Part shown: positions 23,400 to 35,715 of the stretch, piece by piece
How positions within the stretch are numbered: position 1 is the first letter of the stretch
Layout: the number at the start of each line of letters is the position of its first letter
DNA from: Microtetraspora fusca
GTDB taxonomy: Bacteria; Actinomycetota; Actinomycetes; Streptosporangiales; Streptosporangiaceae
Length of the DNA: 64,000 nt
Assembly: GCF_001570365.1 (NCBI RefSeq)
Contig: NZ_BBYK01000041.1
Coordinates: forward strand, 247,970-311,969
Reading direction: 5' to 3'
Made by a program: the position numbers and the translations under genes
Notes under the pieces: generated by a model
Told to the model about the DNA's origin: nothing
The model's input: the letters and a program-made list of their open reading frames with translations, nothing else
Database searches by the model: none

Positions 23400-25037
23400 T
23401 CACGGAAGGCGGAGCCGCCTGCCCCGGGTCACCGCGCGTAGATCCGCCTCGATCCGGGAGGCCGTCTCGGTGAGCGGCGGCAGCAGCGCCGCGAGCGTCT
23501 CCTCGACGGGGCCCCGCGCCGCGTGGGTCGCGACGTTGAGCGCCGCCACCACCTGGCCGGCGCCGTCCCTGACCGGGACGGCCAGCGAGCGGAGCCCTTC
23601 CTCCAGCTCCTCGTCCACGAAGGCGTGCCCCCGCTCGGCCGCCCCCTCGACGATTTTCGCCAGCTCCGCCGGGTCGGTCACGGTCCGCCCGGTGATGGCG
23701 CGCGGGTCCGCGCCCGCCAGCCGCGCGGCCAGTTCCGCGTGCGGGAGGCTGGCCAGCAGCACCCGCCCCATCGACGTCGCGTACGCGGGGAGCCGGGTGC
23801 CGACCGTGATGTCGACACTCATGATCTTGTAGGCCGGCACCCGGGCGACGTAGCGGATCTCGTCGCCGTCGAGCACCGCCATGGACGCCGACTCGTGCGT
23901 GCGCCGGACCAGGTCGGCCATGTGCGGCTGCACGATCTCGGCGAAGCCGAGCGACGACAGGTGCGCGTATCCGAGTTCGAGCACACGGGGCAGCGGCCGG
24001 AAGCCGCGTCCGACGTGTTCGACGTAGCCGAGGTGCTCCAGGGTGAGAAGCGCGCGCCGCGCGGTCGCCCGGGCCAGGCCGGTGCTCTCGGCGACCTCCG
24101 ACAGCGAGCGCGTGCCGTCGAGGGCGCAGAGCACCGTGAGCCCCCTGGCCAGGGACTGCAGGAACTCGGGCCCCAGCTCGCGCTTGGCCGTCCGCGCCGG
24201 ATCCGCCCCGACCGCGGTCGCGGCCGCCGCGCCCGGCCCGCCGGAGGTGTGCTCCGCCAGGACGCGCGCGAGTGCCGCCTCCATGGCGCCGGTCTCCTCG
24301 CGCAGCCGGGGCAGCGTCGCCTCGGCGAGCGAGGCGACCGTGTGCCTGCTGGTGTGGCTCACCACGCTCACCGCGCAGGCCGTACGCCCGGACGGGTCGC
24401 GCACGGGCACGGCCACCGCGATCAGGCCGGGCTCGATGAGCTGGTCGTCGGCGGACCAGCCCTCGGCGACGGCGCGGGCGACGCGGCGGTCGAACTCCTC
24501 CGCCTCGACGGGCGGGCGCGCGGGCACGGCGGGGAAGTGCTCGGGGAGGCGCTCCGGTGACGCGCGCCGGGCGAGCCAGGCCGCCCGGGCATCCTCGTCC
24601 CACTCGGCGGCGAAGAGCGGGCCGGGGGCGCACCGCTCTGCGGGCAGCAGGTCGCCGATGCGGAAGGCCAGCGACATGGTGCGCCGGCGGGTGATCTGGG
24701 TGACGAACCTGACGCCGTCGCCGTCGGGCACCGCGACGGAGACGGACTCGTCGAACTCGTCGGCCAGCCGCTCGGCCACCGGTCCGAGCGCGGCCGGGAC
24801 GCCGCAGCCGGCCAGGTAGGCGTTGCCCGGCTCCATCAGCGGCGGGGCCAGCTCGACCTCGCGGTCGATCTCGCGCAGGTGGCCGAGGTGGACGAGGGTG
24901 GCGACCACGCGGTCCACGGTCGAGCGGGCGAGCCCGGTGGCCCGGGCGAGGTCGCTCAGGCGCATCCGGTGTCCACCGGGCGCCGACATGACGCGCAGCA
25001 CGGCCAGCCCTCTTTCGAGCGGCCCGACGACATCCAT
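23400..25037 (-). CDS. Tandem-IclR fusion regulator of the pca/pob operon
   Basis: 545 residues, about twice the usual IclR length. Module 1: HTH LSDLARATGLARSTVDRVVATLVHLGHL (~28-55) plus effector domain with TMSLAFRIGDLLPAERCAPG. Module 2: HTH LSEVAESTGLARATARRALLTLEHLGYV (~305-335) plus the effector domain MSVDITVGTRLPAYATSMGRVLLA. The second effector domain keeps the PcaR/PcaU-like signature (YATSMGRVLLA, ITGRTVTD, FVDEELEEGLRSLAVPV); the first is more divergent. It is divergent from pcaI with 83 bp between starts. IclR proteins of this type respond to beta-ketoadipate or protocatechuate, so it is the likely controller of the operon. One chain could bind two half-sites. Confidence 0.88.
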   Translation of the reverse strand: MDVVGPLERGLAVLRVMSAPGGHRMRLSDLARATGLARSTVDRVVATLVHLGHLREIDREVELAPPLMEPGNAYLAGCGVPAALGPVAERLADEFDESVSVAVPDGDGVRFVTQITRRRTMSLAFRIGDLLPAERCAPGPLFAAEWDEDARAAWLARRASPERLPEHFPAVPARPPVEAEEFDRRVARAVAEGWSADDQLIEPGLIAVAVPVRDPSGRTACAVSVVSHTSRHTVASLAEATLPRLREETGAMEAALARVLAEHTSGGPGAAAATAVGADPARTAKRELGPEFLQSLARGLTVLCALDGTRSLSEVAESTGLARATARRALLTLEHLGYVEHVGRGFRPLPRVLELGYAHLSSLGFAEIVQPHMADLVRRTHESASMAVLDGDEIRYVARVPAYKIMSVDITVGTRLPAYATSMGRVLLASLPHAELAARLAGADPRAITGRTVTDPAELAKIVEGAAERGHAFVDEELEEGLRSLAVPVRDGAGQVVAALNVATHAARGPVEETLAALLPPLTETASRIEADLRAVTRGRRLRLP

Positions 25038-30685: not shown

Positions 30686-31933
30686 ATGAAGCCTGCCCAC
30701 GCTCCCGGCAGCCCCGGAGCCGACGAGACCGGCCACCGGACGACGGCCGGGACCGGAGCGGCGCCGACGGCCCCGTCCGGGACGCCGCGCCTGCACCACC
30801 GCACCGACGGCCGCCCGGACGCTCCCGCGCTCCTGCTCGGTCCCTCGCTCGGTACCTCCCTCGCCGTGTGGGACCCGCAGGTGCCCGCGCTCGCCCGCGA
30901 CCATCGCGTCGTGCGGTGGGACCTTCCCGGCCACGGCGGCTCGCCGTCCGCGCTCGGCGAGGGGGCCACGGTCGCCGACCTCGCCGGGCTCGTCCTCGAC
31001 CTCGCCGACGCCCTCGGCGTGGACCGGTTCCACTACGCCGGGATCTCCCTCGGCGGCGGGGTCGGCGCGTGGCTGGCGCTCCACCACCCCGACCGGGTCG
31101 CCTCGCTCACCATGGTGTGCTCGTCGGCCCGGTTCGGCACCGAGGAGACGTGGCGTGAGCGGGCCGCGCTCGTCCGGGCCAACGGCACCGGCATCGTGGT
31201 CGACTCCGCGGCCCAGCGCTGGTTCACCCCCGCCTTCACCGGGGCGGCCCCCTTCCTCGACGAGCTGCGCGAGGTCCGCGCCGACGGGTACGCCGCCTGC
31301 TGCGACGCGCTCGCGGTGTACGACATCCGCGCCGAGCTGGGCCGGATCACCCCGCCGACCCTGGTGATCGGCGGGCGGGACGACATCGCCACGCCGCCCG
31401 CGCACGCGCGGGAGCTGGCCGACGGCATCCCCGGTGCGACGCTCGTGGAGATCCCCGGAACGGCCCACCTGGCCGGAGTGGAACGGCCCGAGCCCGTGCT
31501 GACCGCCCTGCTCGCCCACCTCGAAGACGGCGGTCCGGCCCGCGCGGACGGCTCCCGCCGGTACGCCGCCGGGATGGGCGTGCGCCGCGCCGTGCTCGGC
31601 GACGCGCACGTGGACCGCGCCACCGCGAACGCCGACTCCTTCACCGCCGACTTCCAGGACTTCATCACCCGCTACGCCTGGGGCGAGATCTGGACCAGGC
31701 CCGGCCTCGACCGCCGTACGCGCAGTTGCGTCACGCTGACCGCGCTCGTCGCGGGCGGCCACCTGGAGGAGCTGGCGATGCACGTCAGAGCCGCGCTGCG
31801 CAACGGCCTCACCCCGGACGAGATCAAGGAAGTCCTGCTGCAGGCGGCCGTCTACTGCGGCGTCCCGGCCGCCAACGCCGCGTTCGCCGTGGCCCAGCGC
31901 ACCCTGAACGAGCTCCAGGAGAGGAACCCATGA
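30686..31933 (+). CDS. pcaL: Fused 3-oxoadipate enol-lactonase / 4-carboxymuconolactone decarboxylase
   Basis: 415 residues with two enzymes in one chain. After a ~35-residue low-complexity leader comes an alpha/beta-hydrolase (PcaD) with nucleophile elbow YAGISLGGG (Ser ~121), acid GGRDDIATP and His in GTAHLAG. From ~290 the PcaC domain follows: RRAVLGDAHVDRATANADSFTADFQDFITRYAWGEIWTRPGL and HVRAALRNGLTPDEIKEVLLQAAVYCGVPAANAAF. The fused form (PcaL) is known in Rhodococcus and Streptomyces. It performs decarboxylation and then lactone hydrolysis, giving beta-ketoadipate. AAGGAG precedes the ATG; the stop overlaps pobA (ATGA). Confidence 0.95.
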   Translation: MKPAHAPGSPGADETGHRTTAGTGAAPTAPSGTPRLHHRTDGRPDAPALLLGPSLGTSLAVWDPQVPALARDHRVVRWDLPGHGGSPSALGEGATVADLAGLVLDLADALGVDRFHYAGISLGGGVGAWLALHHPDRVASLTMVCSSARFGTEETWRERAALVRANGTGIVVDSAAQRWFTPAFTGAAPFLDELREVRADGYAACCDALAVYDIRAELGRITPPTLVIGGRDDIATPPAHARELADGIPGATLVEIPGTAHLAGVERPEPVLTALLAHLEDGGPARADGSRRYAAGMGVRRAVLGDAHVDRATANADSFTADFQDFITRYAWGEIWTRPGLDRRTRSCVTLTALVAGGHLEELAMHVRAALRNGLTPDEIKEVLLQAAVYCGVPAANAAFAVAQRTLNELQERNP

Positions 31934-33117
31934 GCGTCCCCGCCCGCACCACTGTCGCGATCATCGGGGCCGGCCCCGCCGGGCTGCTCCTGGCCCGGCT
32001 GCTCCAGCGCTCCGGCATCGACTCCGTCGTGCTGGAGCACCGCGACCGCGCGTACGTCGAGCAGCGCCAGCGCGCCGGCATCCTTGAGCAGGGCACGATC
32101 GACGTCCTGCGCGCGTGCGGCGCCGGCGAGCGGATGGACCGCGAGGGCCTCCCGCACAACGGCGTCGAGCTGCGTTTCGACCGCCGGGGCCACCGGATCG
32201 ACTTCCCGTCGCTCACCGGCGGCCGCGCCGTCATGGTCTACGCCCAGACCGAGATGGTGAAGGACCTGGTGGCGCTCCAGCTCGCCGAGGGCGGCCCGCT
32301 GCTGTTCGAGGCGCGCGCCGTCGCCGTCGAGGGGCTGGAGGCCGGGCAGCCGTCGGTCCGCTACGTCCACGAGGGCCGCGAGCACACCCTGGCCTGCGAC
32401 TTCGTGGTGGGCTGCGACGGCTTCCACGGCATCGCCCGCGCCGCCGTCCCGTCCGGCGTGCTGCGCACCTTCGACCGGGAGTACCCCTTCTCCTGGCTCG
32501 GCATCCTGGCCGACGTCCCGCCCTCGTCCGACGAGCTGATCTACGCGCACTCCGAGCGCGGCTTCGCCCTGCTCAGCATGCGCACGCCCACGGTCAGCCG
32601 GCTGTACCTCCAGGTGCCGAACGGCACCGACCCCAGCGACTGGCCGGACGAGCGCATCTGGGACGAGCTGGACCTCCGGTTCGCCGTGGACGGCGACTGG
32701 AAGCTGGAGCGCGGCCCCATCACGTCGAAGTCGGTCACCCCGATGCGGAGCTTCGTCACCGAGCCCATGCGGTACGGCCCGCTCTTCCTGGCCGGGGACG
32801 CCGCGCACATCGTGCCGCCGACCGGGGCCAAGGGGCTGAACCTCGCCGTCGCCGACGTGGTCGTCCTGGCCCGGGCGCTCGCCCGGTGGCACGAGACCGG
32901 CGCCGCCGACCTCCTCGACGCGTACTCCGACACCTGCCTGCGCCGGGTCTGGCGGGCCGAGCACTTCTCCTATTTCATGACCACGACCCTGCACCCCGAC
33001 CCCGCGCAGAGCGACTTCGACACCCGGCTGCAGCTCTCGCAGCTGCATCGGATCGCCGACTCGGAGACCGCGGCGGCCGAGCTGGCGCAGAACTACGTCG
33101 GCCTCCCCTTCGAGTGA
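31930..33117 (+). CDS. pobA: 4-hydroxybenzoate 3-monooxygenase
   Basis: 395 residues. FAD-dependent aromatic hydroxylase with dinucleotide motif VAIIGAGPAGLLLARLL, YVEQRQRAGILEQGTIDVLRACG, the family DG motif VVGCDGFHG and the FAD ribityl motif LFLAGDAAHIVPPTGAKGLNLAVADV. The length matches p-hydroxybenzoate hydroxylase (~394). It makes protocatechuate from 4-hydroxybenzoate with NAD(P)H and O2, feeding PcaGH. The ATG overlaps the pcaL TGA, so it is the last gene of the same operon. Confidence 0.95.
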   Translation: MSVPARTTVAIIGAGPAGLLLARLLQRSGIDSVVLEHRDRAYVEQRQRAGILEQGTIDVLRACGAGERMDREGLPHNGVELRFDRRGHRIDFPSLTGGRAVMVYAQTEMVKDLVALQLAEGGPLLFEARAVAVEGLEAGQPSVRYVHEGREHTLACDFVVGCDGFHGIARAAVPSGVLRTFDREYPFSWLGILADVPPSSDELIYAHSERGFALLSMRTPTVSRLYLQVPNGTDPSDWPDERIWDELDLRFAVDGDWKLERGPITSKSVTPMRSFVTEPMRYGPLFLAGDAAHIVPPTGAKGLNLAVADVVVLARALARWHETGAADLLDAYSDTCLRRVWRAEHFSYFMTTTLHPDPAQSDFDTRLQLSQLHRIADSETAAAELAQNYVGLPFE

Positions 33118-33210: not shown

Positions 33211-33226
33211 TGCCTATTTATAGGCA
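33211..33226. promoter_or_regulatory. Perfect palindrome upstream of the small membrane peptide and MFS gene
   Basis: TGCCTATTTATAGGCA: 7-bp perfect arms with a 2-nt centre. It is followed by another ATAGGC half-site (33229-33234). AT-rich within GC-rich DNA, 69 bp before the small ORF, it is a good candidate operator, possibly for the winged-helix domain of the downstream transporter. Confidence 0.6.
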
Positions 33227-33294
33227 GATAGGCGCGACCCGCCGCGGGAAGGGCGCCCTCAGCCCTTCCGCGGCCGGAACTCGGGGAGGAACAG

Positions 33295-33456
33295 ATGGTT
33301 GAGCTGCTGGGAGCGGTGGTCTCCCTGGCGGCCGTGACGCTGCTCGGTCTGATCGCGTTGCTGCTGATCTCGGTGTGCGTGCTCCTGGGGCTGGCAGGGC
33401 TGGCCGCCTTCACCCGGCGCGAACCCCCGCCGGTCTCCCGGATGCCCGCCGCGTGA
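33295..33456 (+). CDS. Small single-pass membrane protein, 53 aa
   Basis: GGGGAGGAACAG precedes an ATG opening a 53-codon frame. The first ~40 residues are one long hydrophobic helix (VELLGAVVSLAAVTLLGLIA, then LLLISVCVLLGLAGLAAF). They are followed by TRREPPPVSRMPAA, a positively charged cytoplasmic end. The excellent ribosome site, hydrophobic-helix-only composition and position directly ahead of a drug transporter make it a likely real small membrane peptide. No homologue recognised. It may assist or regulate the pump (inference). Confidence 0.6.
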   Translation: MVELLGAVVSLAAVTLLGLIALLLISVCVLLGLAGLAAFTRREPPPVSRMPAA

Positions 33457-33464
33457 TCCAGATC

Positions 33465-33503
33465 CCCGCCGGGTGACCCGGATCACCCGGGTCGCCCGGC
33501 GGG
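33465..33503 (+). terminator. 17-bp hairpin between the small ORF and the MFS gene
   Basis: CCCGCCGGGTGACCCGG and CCGGGTCGCCCGGCGGG form a 17-bp stem (16 Watson-Crick pairs and one G-U) around ATCAC. It starts 8 bp after the small ORF stop and ends 40 bp before the transporter ATG. It could be a terminator, a partial read-through terminator or an attenuator that limits transporter expression. Confidence 0.6.
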
Positions 33504-33543
33504 CGCGTGCATGAGGGCCCGCTCTCGGGGGACAGGGGGACCC

Positions 33544-35568
33544 ATGGAGGAGAGCGGGACGGCCCCGGCACCCGTCCGCGAGCGCGGTGTGTGGCCGGTG
33601 ATCCTCGCGCTGATGCTGGCGATGCTCCTCGCCGCCCTGGACCAGACGATCGTGTCCACCGCACTGCCGACCATCGTCGGCGAGTTCGGCGGGCTCAACC
33701 ACCTGTCGTGGGTCGTGACCGCGTACCTGCTCGCCTCCACGGTGTCCACCCCGCTGTGGGGGAAGCTGGGCGACCAGTACGGCCGCCGGCATCTCTTCCA
33801 GGCCGCCATCGTGATCTTCCTGATCGGGTCTGCGCTGTGCGGGCTGGCCGGGAGCATGATCCAGCTCATCGCGTTCCGGGCGCTGCAGGGTCTCGGCGGC
33901 GGCGGGTTGATGGTGCTCGCCATGGCCATCGTCGCGGATGTGGTCGCCCCCCGCGACCGAGGCCGCTACCAGGGGTTCTTCGGCGGCGTCTTCGCCTTCG
34001 CCAGTGTGGTGGGGCCGCTGCTCGGCGGACTGTTCGTCGACCGCCTCTCCTGGCGCTGGGTCTTCTACATCAACGTGCCGATCGGCGTCGTCGCGCTCTT
34101 CGTCATCGCCGCGACCCTGCGCGGGTGGCGCGACCGCAGGCCGCACACCATCGACTACCGGGGCGCCGTCCTCCTCGGCACCGCGGTCACCTGCGTCGTG
34201 CTCGCCACCTCCTGGGGCGGCAGCCGGTACGCCTGGGGCTCCCCGCCGATCCTCGCCCTGGGCGCCGCGGCCGCCCTCCTGCTCGTGCTGTGGGTGCGGG
34301 TCGAGCGGCGCGCGGCGGAGCCGATCGTGCCGCTCCACCTGTTCCGGGTCGACGTGTTCTCCGTCGCCGCCGCGCTCGGTTTCGTGGTGGGCTTCACCAT
34401 GATGGGCACGCTGGCCTACCTGCCGCTGTTCCTCCAGGTGGCGCACGGCGTCTCGGCGACCGAGTCCGGCCTCTACCTGCTGCCGATGATGGCGGGGATG
34501 CTCGGCACCTCGATCGCGTCCGGGCAGGCGATCAGCCGCACCGGGCACTACCGGCTCTACCCGATCGCCGGTATGACGATCACCACGGGCGCGCTGCTGC
34601 TGCTCCACGGCATGAGCGAGCACAGCTCCACGCTCTCCCTGAGCATCCGGTTCCTGGCCCTCGGCGTCGGGCTCGGCCTGGTCATGCAGGTCCTCGTGAT
34701 CGCCGTGCAGAACGTCGTGGACTACCGCGACCTCGGGGTCGCCACCTCGTCGGTGACGTTCTTCCGCTCCATCGGCGGATCGTTCGGCGTCTCCCTCTTC
34801 GGCACGATCTTCGCCGGGCAGGTCGCCGTACGCGCCGCGGAGGCGCTGCGCGGCGTCGCGCTCCCGCCCGGGTTCCATCCGGCGGCGGTGCAGGGCAGCC
34901 CCGCGCTGCTGTCCCGGCTGGCCCCGGACGTCGCCGCGCGGGTCGTGCACGCCTACGCGGCGTCGGTGACCACGATCTTCCTGTACGCGGCGCCGGTCGC
35001 CTTCGCCGGACTCGTCCTCGCCTGCTTCCTGCGGCAGGTGCCGCTGCGGACGACCGTCGGGACTTCCGCCGCCGACCTCGGCGAGGGCTACGGGGGGCCG
35101 TGCGGCCGTTCCTCGCTGGAGGAGATCGAGCGGGCGCTCACCGTGCTCATGGGGAAGGACCCCGAGGCCGCCCGGCTGTACCGCGAGCTGGCCCGGCGCG
35201 CCGGGTACGACCTGCCGGCCGGGGCCGTGTGGATGCTCGCGCGGGTGGCCAGGAGCGGCCGCGCCGGCCGTACGGCGCTGGCGGCGCGGGCCGGCACCAC
35301 ACCGGAGCGGGGCGCGGGGTGCGCCCGGCCGCTGGTGGAGCGCGGTCTCGTCGAGCGTTCAGGCGACGATTTGGTCATCACCGGCCCCGGCCGGGAGGCC
35401 GTGCGGCGGATGGTCGCGGTCCGCCGGGCCGCGCTCGCCCGCCACCTCGACGGGTGGAACCCGGACAGCAACCCGGAGCTCACCGCGCTGCTGTCCCGGC
35501 TGGCGGCGGAGACCGTCGGTGACGACCGCGACGCCCGGGGCGCGGTCGACGCGCGCAGCCGCGACTGA
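33544..35568 (+). CDS. MFS (DHA2/EmrB) drug transporter fused to a winged-helix-like domain
   Basis: 674 residues. Residues ~15-510 are a 14-helix EmrB/QacA exporter: LDQTIVSTALPTIVGEFGG (motif D1), LWGKLGDQYGRRHLFQ (motif A), GGGGLMVLAMAIVADVVAPRDRGRYQG and VGPLLGGLFVD (motif C). After the last helix, ~160 residues are soluble and read like a MarR-type winged helix. ARLYRELARRAGYDLPAGAVWMLARVA is followed by LAARAGTTPERGAGCARPLVERGLVER, then SGDDLVITGPGREAVRRM. So sensor/regulator and pump share one chain, an architecture seen in some actinobacterial MFS proteins. The ATG at 33544 fits the EmrB N-terminus; GGGGGACCC precedes. Substrate unknown; aromatic acids are possible next to pca genes. 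Confidence 0.88.
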   Translation: MEESGTAPAPVRERGVWPVILALMLAMLLAALDQTIVSTALPTIVGEFGGLNHLSWVVTAYLLASTVSTPLWGKLGDQYGRRHLFQAAIVIFLIGSALCGLAGSMIQLIAFRALQGLGGGGLMVLAMAIVADVVAPRDRGRYQGFFGGVFAFASVVGPLLGGLFVDRLSWRWVFYINVPIGVVALFVIAATLRGWRDRRPHTIDYRGAVLLGTAVTCVVLATSWGGSRYAWGSPPILALGAAAALLLVLWVRVERRAAEPIVPLHLFRVDVFSVAAALGFVVGFTMMGTLAYLPLFLQVAHGVSATESGLYLLPMMAGMLGTSIASGQAISRTGHYRLYPIAGMTITTGALLLLHGMSEHSSTLSLSIRFLALGVGLGLVMQVLVIAVQNVVDYRDLGVATSSVTFFRSIGGSFGVSLFGTIFAGQVAVRAAEALRGVALPPGFHPAAVQGSPALLSRLAPDVAARVVHAYAASVTTIFLYAAPVAFAGLVLACFLRQVPLRTTVGTSAADLGEGYGGPCGRSSLEEIERALTVLMGKDPEAARLYRELARRAGYDLPAGAVWMLARVARSGRAGRTALAARAGTTPERGAGCARPLVERGLVERSGDDLVITGPGREAVRRMVAVRRAALARHLDGWNPDSNPELTALLSRLAAETVGDDRDARGAVDARSRD

Positions 35569-35715
35569 TCAATCGGCCATATCGGCCCCATTGCCTTGGG
35601 CCAGCGCGTCGACGACCTCGGTGAGATGGGCCAGCCGGCTCTCCAGGCCGCGTATCCGCGCCTCAAGTTCGGCCAGCGACGGCTGCTGAAAGGTCTCGCC
35701 GATCTGCCTGGCCAT
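35569..35715 (-). CDS. Small coiled-coil protein, 48 aa
   Basis: GGGAGGATCG directly precedes the ATG at 35715. The protein MARQIGETFQQPSLAELEAR continues as a single amphipathic helix (IRGLESRLAHLTEVVDALAQ) with heptad-spaced Leu/Val. It probably dimerises as a short coiled coil. It ends 1 bp from the stop of the MFS gene (convergent). The same frame extends much further upstream but loses codon bias there. Function unknown. Confidence 0.65.
   Translation of the reverse strand: MARQIGETFQQPSLAELEARIRGLESRLAHLTEVVDALAQGNGADMAD

Follow-up and report, generated by a model that had tools for sequence, protein, structure and literature searches.

The window, a stretch of 64,000 nucleotides of Microtetraspora fusca, carries a gene in which an efflux pump is fused to a MarR-like domain. 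On the forward strand, a pobA-like gene (31930-33117), whose name is inferred from its match to FAD_binding_3, is followed by a small open reading frame (ORF) at 33295..33456, and the palindrome TGCCTATTTATAGGCA (33211..33226, without a strand) lies between the two. The small ORF has a GGAGG ribosome site and encodes a 53-residue membrane peptide with a single helix. On the same strand, it is followed by a 17-bp G+C-rich hairpin (~33465..33503), which by folding is terminator-like and has no T run, and then by the gene for an EmrB/DHA2 MFS efflux pump of 674 residues (33544..35568) with its fused C-terminal MarR-like domain. The initial annotation had read these four elements, namely the palindrome, the small ORF with its ribosome site, the hairpin and the pump-MarR fusion, as one functional unit, and all of them are present close to where it had placed them. 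ATG 33544 is preferred as the start of the pump; a start at 33511 is unlikely, as the stretch 33511-33544 has a one-base gap in the relative L083. The protein, also on the forward strand, consists of an MFS part (residues 1-501, 33544..35046), a linker containing DLGEGYGGPCGRS (residues 502-523, 35047..35112), and a MarR-like winged-helix domain (residues 524-674, 35113..35565), in this order. The genes 5′ of the pump resemble a protocatechuate/4-hydroxybenzoate cluster. Elsewhere in the window, a 545-residue frame on the reverse strand (23403-25037), divergent from the catabolic genes, contains two IclR units (twice IclR HTH plus IclR_C). A gene for a 48-residue coiled-coil-like peptide (35569-35715, reverse strand), with a GGAGG site, is convergent with the pump gene. 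Relatives of this peptide in the 25 loci searched (some genomes occurring twice) mostly lie immediately 3′ of the small membrane ORF in the absence of the pump, and in L081 and L082, which are closely related to the window, the peptide was not found 3′ of the pump.

The MFS part has the properties of the EmrB-type pump proposed in the initial annotation. It reaches 250.6 bits with TIGR00711 (efflux_EmrB), for which the curated cut-off is 230.2, its MFS_1 score is also above the cut-off, and the AlphaFold model contains 14 helices of at least 15 residues before residue 500. In these scores and helices, and in the motif A found after helix 2, the protein is like the EmrB/QacA-type DHA2 pumps, to which it adds a C-terminal MarR-like domain of ~150 residues. 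Motif A after helix 2 implies, by the usual topology, that both ends of the pump are cytoplasmic. Drug/proton antiport is the putative function, as judged from membership of the EmrB/DHA2 family. OtrB and Tcr3 are the top-scoring named NCBIfam models, both under their own cut-offs and covering the MFS part only. The genome of the window has 69 matches to the pump and one match to its C-terminal domain. Distant fused pumps of a similar kind occur in an actinobacterial family, f4 (L185 and L186). The mycobacterial MFS pump Rv1877, which we take to be 687 residues long, is a lead only, since its length would fit a fused pump and the likeness is one of length alone. A term search of the Rv1877 paper (PMC10956863) found neither a winged helix nor a C-terminal domain mentioned, and MarR only in the reference list.

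Profile comparison and structure modelling together confirm that the C-terminal ~150 residues are a MarR-type winged helix. A profile built from 59 relatives has Rv1404 as its best match in the PDB (E 1.9e-8), and the top rows, among the 60 best of 103 sequences at E ≤ 1, are mostly MarR proteins. As the initial annotation had anticipated, structure prediction of the domain gives a winged helix: in the AlphaFold model of the domain piece, pLDDT is 85-98 over residues ~41-130 (77.5 on average over the piece, pTM 0.72), and the elements follow the MarR order a1-a2-b1-a3-a4-b2-b3-a5-a6, with helix 1 at low confidence (pLDDT ~52-56). VIA-align superposes 122 residues of the model on ST1710 at 5.0 Å with a Z of 10.6, a value near 10 being by itself not decisive for mostly helical models. 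The fold and the order of elements are thereby alike in the pump's domain and in the MarR regulators Rv1404, YusO, ST1710 and SCO5413 (Z up to 10.6). Foldseek gives nothing at E ≤ 0.001 (best 4.4e-3), and its 50 top rows are nearly all MarR proteins. With the window protein alone, Pfam and NCBIfam give nothing but sub-threshold matches over the C-terminal domain; at E 0.01, Pfam recognizes HVO_A0261_N in 17, MarR_2 in 10 and MarR in 4 of the 59 relatives, and nothing in the window's domain alone.

Fusions of this kind occur widely among actinobacteria, also in Streptomyces. In the window's family, 119 of 200 genomes match the domain, the strong matches being nearly all in long frames and the weak ones often in stand-alone genes. 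In the class, 138 of 296 genomes match it at E ≤ 1e-8, both in fused frames of several families and in stand-alone genes, and the named carriers include Microtetraspora, Acrocarpospora, Actinomadura, Streptosporangium, Nonomuraea, Kitasatospora, Embleya and many Streptomyces. Pump and domain share one frame in 59 of 60 loci. Since these loci were selected manually among the stronger matches in long frames, the figure counts intact frames and is not a frequency; L106, in which no start codon was found, was dropped from the pump loci, and L109, with a frame of 826 residues, was excluded from alignments A1 and A2. The domain also sits in a long frame in 80 of 80 named loci, those that rank highest by match among 592 confirmed relatives, and since two of the six search peptides lie in the domain, this uniformity is likewise a matter of selection. 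The fused domains compared below number 162 (59, the window's own, and sets of 16, 6 and 80, with some genomes in two sets), comprise 154 distinct sequences and form 60 clusters at 70% identity; all 162 long frames also prove to include the MFS part, at an identity of 46% or more over 347 residues or more. The 14 stand-alone relatives used for comparison are a small sample, picked by similarity from the matches in the family and the class, and form nine clusters at 70% identity.

No description of a fused MFS-MarR pump was found in the open-access literature, as judged from titles and the openings of abstracts, and the architecture may well be annotated already in protein databases. It joins a known pump family to a known fold, and the changes in this fold suggest a different function. 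What is new here, at the level of aligned sequences, is that a clipped wing is common to the fused domains and that W563 is near-invariant only when the domain is fused.

The small peptide and the palindrome belong to a neighbourhood element separate from the pump, and the peptide family is linked with ppx. The peptide represents a conserved family in which a very hydrophobic helix is followed by a variable tail. Over the 44 shared codons, dN is below dS in nine of ten pairs and slightly above it in one (0.107 vs 0.102), and differences at codon positions 1, 2 and 3 number 65, 22 and 47 in the window's group and 64, 72 and 84 in the genus g65; coding pressure on the small ORF would be indicated mainly by the kept frame and the hydrophobic pattern. 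A Ppx/GppA gene (Pfam PF02541, E 1.3e-71) precedes the ORF in 21 of 30 loci, these being the best 30 of the search; the other nine are five of the window's group, L059, L066, L068 and L062, the last of which is probably a false match. A close ppx is lacking from the genome of the window, which has just a 32% paralogue at another place. The small peptide may be a membrane partner of Ppx/GppA. A block of Ppx/GppA phosphatase, membrane peptide and coiled-coil peptide recurs in the window's family (L072:2408-4713 and similar loci), and in several loci the Ppx-peptide block is followed by a calcineurin-like phosphoesterase.

It is very improbable that the pump has the 53-residue peptide as its subunit or modulator and the palindrome as its operator. 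This proposal starts from adjacency: in 8 of the 59 relatives' pump loci, the peptide begins no more than ~450 bp ahead of the pump, and in an Acrocarpospora-like genus the two genes are adjacent in five genomes, directly preceded by ppx in four and separated by only 3 to 21 bp in the three genomes measured. However, the peptide was not found in the other 51 pump loci (~1.5 kb on each side, E ≤ 0.01), its usual place is beside Ppx/GppA, and it lies on the same contig as the pump at a distance of ~10.5 kb in G051 and ~8.5 kb in G130. Moreover, a genome of the same genus as the window, G096, keeps the pobA-like gene, the palindrome and the small ORF, and it lacks both a pump at this place and, genome-wide, any match to the tail domain. 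In a simple history, ppx, peptide and pump would have been old neighbours, and one or other of them would later have been lost or moved. The single functional unit of the initial annotation does not hold for these reasons, nor for the hairpin, which is found in two of the four genomes compared (the window and L081) and is absent from L082 and L083, so that it was rejected as a conserved regulatory element. Of the conservation that had been foreseen upstream of orthologous fusions, the ORF family proves real and the palindrome is kept in five of five genomes of the window's group, being identical in four and having the central base changed in one, but the ORF adjoins only a minority of the pumps and the palindrome also occurs where the pump is absent.

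To judge from where the site is kept, the palindrome is probably a single-site operator or promoter element that belongs to the small ORF and is not specific to the pump. By chance, 0.01 matches would be expected in the window at up to three mismatches. At up to one mismatch it is the only such site in its own genome and occurs in one place in each of the five genomes, and a role as one site of a regulon was rejected on this count; a backwards-read control pattern gives none in the window's genome and one match in each of three of four other genomes. Because it is kept in all five genomes of the group, it more likely serves the promoter of the peptide. The idea that it might precede ppx in other genera was also rejected, as no A+T-rich inverted repeat with arms of at least 6 bases was found in 180 bases at each of 14 loci.

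MarR proteins grip DNA with an extended wing and a D-x-R/K motif, and it is here that the fused domains depart from their stand-alone relatives. Wing length was counted from where the recognition helix ends up to the T of helix 5, with all sequences aligned to one profile. The wing has 13-18 residues in all 162 fused domains (exactly 13 in 135), against 20 in all 14 stand-alone relatives, and per cluster it has 13-16 residues in 60 of 60 fused and 20 in nine of nine stand-alone clusters. The combination of an extended wing with D-x-R/K is thus lacking from the fused domains. In the window protein, the clipped wing (residues 601-613, GLVERSGDDLVIT; 35344..35382, forward strand) is without seven residues, including the D-x-R, of the stand-alone MarR relatives, whose wing carries a D-P-x-D-x-R-like insert. 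A D-x-R/K string is found in all 14 stand-alone relatives and in 11 of the 162 fused domains (6 of 60 clusters), where the insert is absent and the string is, for example, DGR in the short turn. The mean charge of the recognition helix is -0.63 in fused and +0.71 in stand-alone domains, and that of recognition helix plus wing is -0.82 and +1.21, respectively. Among the fused domains, the recognition helix (1.90 bits) and the wing (1.88 bits) are by a small margin the least conserved structured elements, the others being at 1.64-1.83 bits.

These features bear on the idea that the protein is a membrane-tethered transcription factor, whose winged helix would bind an operator and couple occupancy of the pump to expression of its own gene. 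Although the MarR fold includes a recognition helix that in the window protein has a net charge of +1 (its wing, -2), and although the conserved palindrome, confined to one genomic place, ends 318 bp before the pump start, this idea is improbable: the wing is clipped and has no D-x-R insert throughout the fused domains, their recognition helix is acidic on average, the elements that would contact DNA are the most variable ones, if by a small margin, and the palindrome persists in G096 without the pump. A stand-alone MarR gene lies within 300 bp of the pump in one of 139 loci, and no separate MarR regulator is evident, which would favor self-regulation; with regard to TetR neighbors, a two-seed TetR profile matched only its own seeds. 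Upstream of the pumps of 24 relatives, including 10 Streptomyces, no shared palindrome stood out by eye in the portion of the alignment that was inspected. The direct reading of an operator by the winged helix, as put forward in the initial annotation, is not borne out by these comparisons. A short wing alone is nevertheless compatible with DNA binding, because MntR and iron-dependent regulators, which bind DNA, align in the PDB profile table with 0 to +1 residues.

Other residues are conserved only in the fused form. W563 (codon 35230..35232, forward strand) is present in 160 of 162 fused domains and 0 of 14 stand-alone relatives, Y546 in 154 of 162 and 0 of 13, and R567 in 146 of 162 and 1 of 14. 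The pump's domain thereby differs from MarR regulators in being covalently part of a transporter, in a wing ~7 residues shorter than that of the 14 stand-alone relatives, in the missing D-x-R insert, and in these fused-specific residues. The linker, at 1.65 bits, is about as conserved as the helices despite its low model confidence and is recognizable among relatives, with the consensus DLGEGxGxAPxxRSS in the window's family and DVTETLASNPVERSS in the Streptomyces-type set. Taken from the alignments, the fused domain looks like a MarR domain freed from DNA binding and kept by another function. This function might be no more than dimerization or stability, in that the domain would only pair pumps or protect the C-terminus without any sensing. 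The outer helices, which form the dimer interface in MarR proteins, are present in the model with conserved leucines, and a structural or stabilizing role could leave identical traces. However, the near-invariant fused-specific W563, Y546 and R567, together with the conserved linker, point beyond packing, and we regard a purely structural domain as rather unlikely, if less so than a DNA-binding one.

A precedent for a MarR domain at work outside transcription is AbHpaC, the reductase of p-hydroxyphenylacetate 3-hydroxylase (PDB 5zc2), whose C-terminal MarR domain binds 4-HPA and thereby relieves self-inhibition, according to a review (PMC10816480). Both proteins have a MarR-like domain at the C-terminus of a non-regulator, and the wing insert is absent in both, in AbHpaC from aligned spans only (86 vs 86, and 77 vs 77 with a second profile); MarR regulators whose match spans the wing have +5 to +14 residues among the 60 best of 103 rows. 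AbHpaC, the sole MarR-domain enzyme among the PDB matches listed, thus seems from these spans to share the clipped wing. Its host, in contrast, is a soluble flavin reductase with a known ligand, and the likeness is one of architecture.

The reading that we prefer, with a probability of roughly 0.52, is that a cytoplasmic ligand-sensing domain derived from MarR gates the pump allosterically and is not a membrane-tethered repressor. The 14-helix DHA2 drug/proton antiporter would bear this domain on a flexible, conserved linker, and the domain would retain the MarR fold and the outer pairing helices, having given up the extended wing and the D-x-R that are used for DNA; retention of these helices is less certain than that of the core because helix 1 of the model is of low confidence. 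A small molecule, either a substrate of the pump or an aromatic metabolite, would bind the MarR-type pocket and, through the linker and the pairing of domains, would relieve or impose inhibition of the transporter, resulting in allosteric gating of efflux. We infer these last steps by likening them to AbHpaC, whose MarR domain gates flavin reduction; for the pump, the ligand-relieved autoinhibition reported in that review serves as an analogy only. An aromatic ligand is only a guess, because the gene neighbors of the fused pumps differ between clades. Allosteric gating of this kind is close to the earlier idea that the winged helix senses drug at the membrane.

Proteins of the MarR family typically detect small molecules and regulate genes, frequently those that encode pumps. 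It is a tentative proposition, for which we would give somewhat less than even odds, that actinobacterial genomes have retained over a long time a ligand-gated MFS drug pump, whose activity is switched directly by a captured MarR sensor that gave up DNA binding. If this is true, a sensor of the type that regulates pump genes in other systems acts here on the pump protein itself. A sensor carried on the pump without the DNA wing, family-wide, would make it possible to regulate efflux through the protein, with no new transcription, and as the fusion is found in Streptomyces and other antibiotic producers, this would bear on self-resistance and multidrug efflux.
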